A DNA stretch of 38,823 nucleotides, from contig CAOKPU010000028.1 of NCBI GenBank assembly GCA_948470755.1, positions 1-38,823 on the forward strand, given 5' to 3'. Source of the stretch: an uncultured Lachnospiraceae bacterium (GTDB taxonomy: Bacteria; Bacillota; Clostridia; Lachnospirales; Lachnospiraceae). Below the pieces are notes generated by a model that worked only from the letters and a program-made list of their open reading frames with translations, was not told where the DNA came from and made no database searches. This document shows positions 5,841 to 7,283 of this stretch, in pieces (positions within the stretch are counted from its first letter, which is position 1; every line of letters starts with the position of its first letter). The translations under genes were made by a program, and so were the position numbers.

Positions 5841-7283
5841 ATGGAAAACAGAGTACCGAAAGGTTTCCCGGAAGGATTTATGTGGGGCGGCGCTTTTGCG
5901 GCAAACCAGATGGAAGGTGCGTATGATATTGATGGAAAAGGCTGGTGTGTGGCCGATATCAATGAATTTGTAAACGATGTACCTATTGACCAGAAATATA
6001 ATATGGAAGTAACAACCCAATTCGTAAAAGAAGCCATGGCTTCCAAAGACCGCATTTTCCCCAAAAGGCACGGCATTGACTTTTACCATACTTATAAAGA
6101 AGATCTGAAACTTTTGGCGGAACTCGGCCTTAAGACCTACCGTACATCGATTAACTGGTCGCGTATCTATCCAAACGGGGATGACGCGGAGCCAAATGAA
6201 GCGGGATTAAAATTTTATGATGATTTATTCGATGAGATCCTTGCCCACGGCATGGAACCCATGATTACCATTTCCCATTATGAGATTCCGTTAAATCTCA
6301 CATTGAAATATAAGGGATGGTATTCCAGGGAAGTCATTGATTTCTTTGAGAAATATTGTAAGACGGTGTTCGACCGTTATGCCGGCAAAGTAAAATATTG
6401 GATCATCGTTAATCAGATCAACTTAATCGTGCATGAATCGTTTAACCACCTTGGCGTGGCGGAGGATGTGGTGGATGACGTCCTTTCCGCAAAATATCAG
6501 GCAGTGCATAACGAAATGGTTTCCTGTGCAAGGGCAACAAAATATGCGCATGAAAAATATCCGGAAATGCAGATCGGCATGATGCTTTGCGGCGGCCCTT
6601 CCTACGCAGCTACCTGCAAGCCTGAAGATGTGCTGGCTACACTGCGACATAATCAGATGGAATACTTCTTCAGCGACGTATTGCTGCGTGGTTATTACCC
6701 CGGATACGCATTCCGTTTCTTTGAAGATTTTAACATTAAAGTGGAATTCGGCGAACATGATGAAGAAGATTTGAAAAATACGGCTGATTTCTTCTCGTTC
6801 TCTTATTATTATACAAGGATTTGTTCTAAAGAGAGCTTTGAAGACGGCAACAACGTGTCCAGGAACAAAGAGCTTCCGGCCAACCCATGGGGATGGAGCA
6901 TCGACCCCATCGGCCTGCGCATTCTGCTAAACGAGTTCTACGACCGTTACCAGAAACCCATTTACATTACGGAAAACGGCGTTGGCTACTATGATAAGCT
7001 GGAGGAGGACGGGCATATTCATGACCCTTACCGTGTTGATTATTACCGCGCCCATATCGCCCAAATGAAAGAGGCTATAAAAGACGGCGTCGATTTACGC
7101 GGTTATTATGCATGGGGGCCTCTCGATATCGTAAGCTGCTCATCTTCGGAAATGAGCAAACGTTATGGCTTTATCTATGTCGATTTGGACGATTACGGGA
7201 AAGGAAGCGGAAAACGTATTAAGAAGGACAGTTTTGCCTGGTATCAGAAGGTAATTGCAACCAACGGTGAGGATTTGGATTAA
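5841..7283 (+). CDS. GH1 6-phospho-beta-glucosidase family protein with Gln at the acid/base site
   Basis: This 480-residue protein has the full length of BglA/AscB-type GH1 enzymes, which cleave phosphorylated disaccharides or glucosides after PTS uptake. Conserved parts are [17 protein letters not shown] near the N-terminus, [10 protein letters not shown], the ISHYEIP segment, and the nucleophile Glu378 in YITENGVG. The phosphate-binding loop [15 protein letters not shown] is also present. The acid/base position reads VNQIN: Asn191, Gln192 (CAG at 6414-6416), where relatives have NEIN or NEP. All other landmarks are intact, so this is not simple decay. In GH1, Gln at this site is known from plant myrosinases, which split S-glycosides. 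An S-glycosidase, a transglycosidase or an inactive relative are all possible. AAAGGAG precedes the start. Confidence 0.9.

Follow-up and report, generated by a model that had tools for sequence, protein, structure and literature searches.

Plant myrosinases, the thioglucosidases of glycoside hydrolase family 1 (GH1), use basic residues for the glucosinolate sulfate. Even without its acid, a retaining glycosidase can cleave a bond if the leaving group requires no protonation. To our knowledge, outside plant myrosinases the change from Glu to Gln at the acid/base position has mostly been met as a laboratory mutant. Among phospho-glycosidases of the family, a Trp at the position that separates gluco from galacto enzymes marks 6-phospho-beta-galactosidases (PMC10360150, PMC3605045). 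In E. coli, disruption of bglA and ascB reduced the breakdown of sinigrin (PMC6767122), and CfPbgS is 48–50% identical to BglA and AscB (PMC8660893). No natural group of phospho-beta-glucosidases with Gln at this site was described in the accessible text of the open-licence literature searched.

Here we describe such a group, starting from a GH1 gene in a 38,823-nucleotide stretch (contig CAOKPU010000028.1 of assembly GCA_948470755.1; hereafter the window) from an uncultured Lachnospiraceae bacterium that is probably a gut bacterium. A natural bacterial group in which Gln seems to have been fixed once, with the other catalytic residues kept, would be a clean test of acid-independent glycoside cleavage. 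The group may also mark a substrate shared by bacteria of four phyla, at which annotation does not hint; the annotation of three Gln copies reads simply “glycoside hydrolase family 1 protein”.

Gene and Catalytic Residues

The gene lies at positions 5,841 to 7,283 of the forward strand and encodes a 480-residue enzyme resembling 6-phospho-beta-glucosidases. Pfam places it in GH1 (PF00232, residues 7–476, 410.7 bits; cut-off 22.6), and the best PDB matches of its AlphaFold2 model (mean pLDDT 95.4) are 6wgd, 2xhy (E. coli BglA) and 3pn8; several Glu-to-Gln laboratory mutants are also among the matches. The NCBIfam subfamily cut-offs lie above its scores, the best being 535.7 bits against 623 (NF007356) and 532.9 against 639 (NF007158).

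Active-site residues were mapped by alignment with the crystallised enzyme SmBgl of S. mutans (3pn8), with a numbering offset of 3 that reproduces 18 of 18 residues checked from the structural paper (PMC3605045). Where the NE motif of 6-phospho-beta-glucosidases has its acid/base Glu (SmBgl Glu176), the window enzyme has Gln192, encoded by CAG at 6,414–6,416 (forward strand, as are all codons given here) in the motif IIVNQIN. The nucleophile Glu378 (GAA, 6,972–6,974) corresponds to SmBgl Glu375 and stands in a TENG-type motif, YITENG, within [16 protein letters not shown]. The phosphate-binding loop, Ser432 to Tyr442 (7,134–7,166), has the motif [10 protein letters not shown] and supplies Ser434, Lys440 and Tyr442, while the glycone residues are Gln23, His146, Asn191 and Trp425. 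The published −1 and phosphate residues of SmBgl are all kept except for two, Glu176 (Gln192 here) and Ala431 (Cys433 here) (PMC3605045). With Cys433 at the position of the galactosidase Trp, the substrate is expected to be a gluco one.

An earlier note on this DNA, made from the letters alone, had read VNQIN with a CAG codon at Gln192 (its span of 6,405–6,420 runs from Ile189 through the first base of Asn194), an intact nucleophile and phosphate loop, and a GH1 phospho-glycosidase in a phosphotransferase system (PTS) operon. All of this holds: the codon lies in the frame given above, the other residues map to SmBgl and are conserved across the group, and genes for EIIB, EIIC and EIIA lie upstream. 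The window unit belongs to GH1 but lacks the acid/base Glu of 6-phospho-beta-glucosidases and falls below their NCBIfam cut-offs. The other GH1 genes of the same genome all encode Glu at this site (5 of 5).

Distribution and Origin of the Gln Group

A scan of a species-wide genome collection returned 424 relatives, of which the best 80 loci, 64–96% identical to the window enzyme, were kept. All 80 of these encode the acid/base Gln; 71 belong to Bacillota, two each to Spirochaetota and Pseudomonadota and one to Actinomycetota, and four are unplaced. Whether Gln192 is conserved in homologues with the same operon had been named in the earlier note as a check, and among these best 80 of 424 relatives the answer is yes. 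A wider set of 185 distinct GH1 sequences from 176 loci (matches of at least 300 residues, identical sequences collapsed) splits into 103 with Gln and 82 with Glu. Every distinct sequence more than 60% identical to the window enzyme has Gln (84 of 84), and the nearest Glu sequence is 51% identical in this set and 55% in a later one. The Gln codons, CAA in 51 and CAG in 50 of the 101 sequences that could be scored among these 103, are about equally used, which suggests selection on the residue.

Carriers are scattered. Within the genus, a copy at 80% identity or more occurs in 4 of 16 genomes. Among 291 genomes of the class, with the best few candidates of each scored, only the source genome itself has a copy at 60% identity or more, and among 398 genomes of the phylum, scored likewise, at least one other does (L176, 62% identical, Gln); the class and phylum counts are lower bounds. 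An orthologue in E. coli was considered and rejected: with DNA of an Enterobacter copy (L075) as query, no place in 5,426 E. coli genomes covered 80% of it, and the matches listed included only partial BglA-type ones.

We rejected a sequence error because Gln, written with both codons, is shared by near relatives and by the whole group; Gln192 is no local oddity either. A degenerate copy was likewise rejected, given that the nucleophile and the residues of the −1 and phosphate sites are retained. Because the 102 phospho-type Gln sequences (the 103 less L107) were chosen for Gln, only their other residues are informative. Among them the nucleophile Glu is present in all 101 that cover the position, His146, Asn191 and Tyr323 are kept in 102 of 102, and the phosphate Ser, Lys and Tyr are found in 99, 99 and 100, respectively, of the 100 covered. 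Across 11 −1 and phosphate positions, mean pairwise identity within the core group (defined below) is 1.00 in each of five identity bins, compared with 0.91–0.97 for Glu-type enzymes and 0.89–1.00 for the second Gln group in the same bins. The loss of one catalytic residue could point to a non-catalytic binding or sensing protein, a reading that we consider very improbable: the nucleophile, −1 and phosphate residues are retained, the gene is placed after the EII genes, and 13 of the best 80 loci (of 424 relatives) carry two or more Gln GH1 genes or fragments together. The “inactive relative” offered in the earlier note likewise seems unlikely, judging from the catalytic residues that are kept.

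Two trees bear on origin. The first, built from 100 GH1 rows, unites all 29 Gln rows of the phospho type in a single group (SH-aLRT 100) and places the only other Gln row, L107, among non-phospho GH1 enzymes. The second, a maximum-likelihood tree, left out 35 of those 100 rows (22 non-phospho ones, including L107, and 13 Glu rows hand-picked for size) and added 24 new matches of at least 45% identity over at least 440 residues, including the closest Glu sequences found later (54–56% identical by search) and the Gln rows L176 and L182. Here all 31 phospho-type Gln rows again cluster together, no Glu row falls among them (SH-aLRT 98), and a single change between Glu and Gln suffices. Repeated convergent loss within phospho-type GH1 was considered and is not needed in either tree; on these sequences, one origin would suffice for the phospho-type Gln group.

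We divide this group into a core, comprising sequences more than 60% identical to the window enzyme plus the divergent L172, placed there by the first tree, and a second Gln group at about 48–57% identity to the window enzyme. The latter includes copies that lie beside core copies, as well as one in a Listeria record. The Listeria genes lmo0914–0918 are presumably homologues of L171, a locus of the second group. Three papers give expression data for them, and one of the three calls lmo0915 a cellobiose PTS gene.

Two individual sequences deserve mention. L107 (1,483–2,913), a non-phospho GH1 enzyme from another genome of the window's genus, reads MTLNQCHIV, an independent acid/base Gln. L182 (1,381–2,928), a member of the Gln group, has a shortened loop and the motif ITFNQIN, nearer to the Glu-type TFNE, and is possibly an early branch.

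The +1 Region

The comparisons of Gln- and Glu-type rows, here and in the identity bins, set aside the non-phospho rows and four Glu rows of the NEQN type (L022, L106, L151, L152). Of the columns with at least 80% conservation in the Gln rows, only position 192 shares no residue with the Glu rows (29 vs. 45). The two residues before Asn191 are mostly Thr-Phe in Glu enzymes, and in the core mostly Ile, Val or Leu followed by Val or Ile. Leu195, Glu199, His203, Gln272, Tyr324 and Cys433 are each present in 84 of 84 core sequences, Glu274 in 77 (the rest having Gln) and Arg326 in 58. L172 shares Leu195, Glu199, His203, Gln272, Glu274 and Cys433, and has Asn in place of Tyr324.

Several of these residues are candidates for a displaced proton donor. 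The main rival to cleavage without an acid is that the core enzymes hydrolyse ordinary O-glucosides with a donor moved to Glu199, His203 or Glu274, which we regard as unlikely. In its favour, the three residues are nearly or fully constant in the core and all occur in L172, and neither Glu199 nor His203 is among the four commonest residues at its column in Glu-type enzymes. Their location also fits: Glu199-Ser-Phe-Asn-His203 (6,435–6,449), with Glu199 and His203 constant in the core, lies in the beta4–alpha4 loop, which in SmBgl lines the +1 site and entrance, and Glu274 (6,660–6,662) maps to the +1-subsite residue Arg263 of SmBgl (PMC3605045). However, residues of the +1 subsite contact the aglycone in published structures, and the second Gln group shares Gln192 while mostly lacking all three candidates: its 11 rows have Glu199 in 18%, Ser at position 203 in 73%, and Gln or Asn at 274 in 72%. 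L176 has Ala at position 203.

We also compared conservation at the seven published SmBgl +1 positions that could be mapped (PMC3605045). Mean identity in the 55–60% bin is 0.53 for the core (0.54 without L172) vs. 0.36 for Glu-type enzymes, and in the 50–55% bin it is 0.47, from L172 pairs only, vs. 0.29. A specially conserved core +1 subsite was not upheld, as the 60–65% bin gives 0.65 for both. The acidic character of the region, with Glu199 and Glu274, hints that the aglycone is basic or rich in hydrogen bonds and not a sulfate.

Gene Neighborhood

In the window, the GH1 gene is preceded on the forward strand by genes for PTS EIIB (3,744–4,070; PF02302), a divergent EIIC (4,145–5,431; PF02378) and EIIA (5,458–5,796; PF02255), all of the lactose/cellobiose family; the EIIC scores 145.8 bits with NCBIfam cello_pts_IIC, below the cut-off of 434. 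A divergent PRD/EIIA-2 regulator with a Mga-type HTH (Pfam PRD, PTS_EIIA_2, HTH_11 and Mga) lies upstream on the reverse strand (1,535–3,442). Downstream, a Cof-type HAD-IIB phosphatase gene (7,283–8,047; PF08282, just below the NCBIfam Cof-subfamily cut-off) overlaps the GH1 stop with its start and is followed by an HPr gene (8,120–8,377; PF00381), both on the forward strand.

The usual order in the core is EIIB-EIIC-EIIA-GH1 with a PRD regulator. Among the best 80 of 424 relatives, lactose/cellobiose-family EIIC and EIIA are found in 66 loci and glucose-family EII in three, a PRD regulator homologue in 63, HPr in 21, HAD in seven and PTS enzyme I in nine. Ten loci without lactose-type EII genes showed no conserved neighbours (one, L077, has a glucose-type match). 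For comparison, glucose-family EII genes occur in 13 of the 15 Glu-type loci that have wider flanks, and lactose-type ones in no locus of the 15, which all come from the window's genus. A strict coupling of Gln to lactose/cellobiose PTS genes was nevertheless rejected: the second Gln group is mixed, with lactose-type EII in L119, L136 and L171 and glucose-type in L120 and L137, and L172 is glucose-type.

Candidates for handling the aglycone occur in some loci. A YczE-like membrane gene lies beside or in the operon in 14 of the best 80 loci (of 424 relatives), 11 times within 214 bases of GH1 and three times between regulator and EIIB, and an EamA transporter gene lies beside the Gln GH1 in five. 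A histidine phosphatase occurs in five loci of the same 80, in one of them as a fusion with an alpha/beta hydrolase. In the 79 loci with Glu only, whose flanks are mostly shorter, no YczE-like or EamA gene is adjacent (one YczE-like gene lies 3.5 kb off), and EamA, histidine phosphatase and enzyme I gave no match. A sulfatase gene with the CxPSR motif lies directly downstream of the Gln GH1 in L022 (2,141–3,610), L118 (3,133–4,635) and, truncated, L065 (7,421–7,738); in the PDB it best matches members of the sulfatase family and carrageenan sulfatases, and where an EIIC is seen in these loci (L118, L065) it is about 22% identical to that of the window. Such neighbours would fit a discarded non-sugar aglycone of a glucoside, sometimes further esterified.

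Some neighbours are noted in their own right. The histidine phosphatase–alpha/beta hydrolase fusion (L012, 4,153–5,976) has a lipoprotein-like start and lies between EIIA and the Gln GH1. In L009 (7,507–9,526), the place that the HAD and HPr genes take in the window, directly after the Gln GH1, is occupied by genes for a regulator of RpiR type and a SIS protein resembling GKRP/MurQ. At the column of Ser46, the usual regulatory site of HPr, the operon HPr has Lys, and a second HPr in the window (10,445–10,708, reverse strand) has Ser. Of the 21 HPr-like genes in the best 80 loci (of 424 relatives), 13 have Lys or Arg at this column, seven have Ser (L012, L018, L023, L025, L047, L053 and L068) and L019 has Asn, as if many of these PTS units escaped HPr-kinase control. 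Elsewhere in the window (20,001–22,644, reverse strand), two proteins that we presume to be flagellar rod/hook-like are encoded next to a gene that we take to be MreB-like.

Proposed Reaction and Candidate Substrates

Because nucleophile, glycone and phosphate residues are retained, we argue that these enzymes probably still form a glycosyl-enzyme. This, together with the chemistry of the leaving group, taken by analogy with plant myrosinase, leads us to favour acid-independent cleavage. The window gene would then encode a functional retaining glycosidase of GH1 that acts on a 6-phospho-beta-glucoside imported by the PTS and needs no general acid, the aglycone leaving unprotonated, a reading on which our own judgement is evenly balanced. 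Glu378 would attack C1, and the aglycone would depart either as an anion that is stabilised or as a neutral species, the latter if it is cationic or can tautomerise; candidate classes of leaving group are thio, enol, acidic phenol or acyl. Water would then attack the glycosyl-enzyme, held but not deprotonated by Gln192, and glucose-6-phosphate would enter glycolysis. The aglycone would probably be exported, perhaps through the products of adjacent membrane-protein genes in some loci, and externalisation of aglycones after PTS uptake and phospho-glucosidase action is known in L. acidophilus (PMC5698550). Genes support export in a minority of loci only, because 33 of the best 80 (of 424 relatives) have no co-directional gene of at least 120 residues close downstream.

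More tentatively, and with less confidence than we place in the reaction itself, the Gln group as a whole could be a separate GH1 activity: an ancient, single-origin set of 6-phospho-beta-glycosidases, spread across phyla, that abandoned general acid/base catalysis because the aglycones of their natural substrates leave by themselves. The core might then be isofunctional for one glucoside, some of its loci adding their own EI/HPr, exporter, phosphatase or sulfatase, and the second group, sometimes in tandem with it, might serve a related one.

Loss of the carboxylate at the acid/base site leaves no general base, and anions are no longer repelled. The glycosyl-enzyme could then be turned over by an acceptor that is anionic or strongly nucleophilic instead of by water, which would make the protein a 6-phosphoglucosyl transferase or retaining phosphorylase. 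The Cof-type HAD phosphatase of the window operon would suit such a role, but a HAD homologue is as rare among the best 80 loci as noted above, an activated donor would still be required for the first step, and no acceptor site was identified in the enzyme. We consider this possibility distinctly improbable.

A special case of acid-independent cleavage is a 6-phospho-thioglucosidase for glucosinolates, which we judge improbable, with a glucosinolate substrate a weak possibility. The earlier note had offered, as one option, a phospho-thioglucosidase with glucosinolates as an obvious dietary source; the mechanistic half of that idea stands by analogy, given the Gln of plant myrosinases and of two rice GH1 proteins (PMC1781453, PMC9632345), and the glucosinolate half fares poorly. 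Sinigrin degradation by a PTS and a phospho-glucosidase is established in Companilactobacillus farciminis (PMC8660893), and a sulfatase can turn sinigrin into desulfo-sinigrin, which beta-glucosidases then hydrolyse (PMC9569522), so that the three sulfatase loci count in its favour. Against it, the BglA and AscB copies of E. coli K-12 keep Glu, and Gln is not the mark of the bacterial sinigrin degraders checked; insect myrosinases, too, keep both glutamates (PMC9632345). Glu199 and Glu274 of the core +1 region suit an anionic sulfate poorly, the sulfatase stands next to only two of the best 80 loci (plus L118), and no record title among those 80 of 424 relatives names a crucifer source. The C. 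farciminis transporter is also a single IIB-IIC-IIA chain rather than the split lactose/cellobiose type (PMC8660893).

Comparison with Known Systems

The closest described enzymes are the GH1 6-phospho-beta-glucosidases (EC 3.2.1.86; SmBgl 3pn8/4f79, BglA 2xhy, B. licheniformis 6wgd), which share with the window enzyme the fold, the nucleophile, the glycone residues, the phosphate site of Ser, Lys and Tyr, a gluco/galacto position filled by Cys or Ala instead of Trp, and the PTS context. Unlike them, the Gln group has Gln throughout at the acid/base position, the core has a +1 region marked by Leu195, Glu199, His203, Glu274 and Tyr324, and most core loci carry lactose/cellobiose-family EII genes. 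Plant myrosinases differ in another way: the window enzyme is bacterial and presumably cytoplasmic, has a phosphate site and a PTS operon, and belongs to a core whose +1 region is acidic, whereas that of myrosinase is basic. What they have in common is the acid/base Gln, also found in the rice proteins Os4bglu14 and Os9bglu33 (PMC1781453, PMC9632345), for which a lack of hydrolase activity is there only suggested. In the sinigrin system of C. farciminis KB1089 (CfPttS/CfPbgS), PTS import is followed by a GH1 phospho-glucosidase, as proposed here, and the transporter CfPttS is of the single-chain beta-glucoside type, whereas the window encodes EIIB, EIIC and EIIA as separate proteins (PMC8660893).
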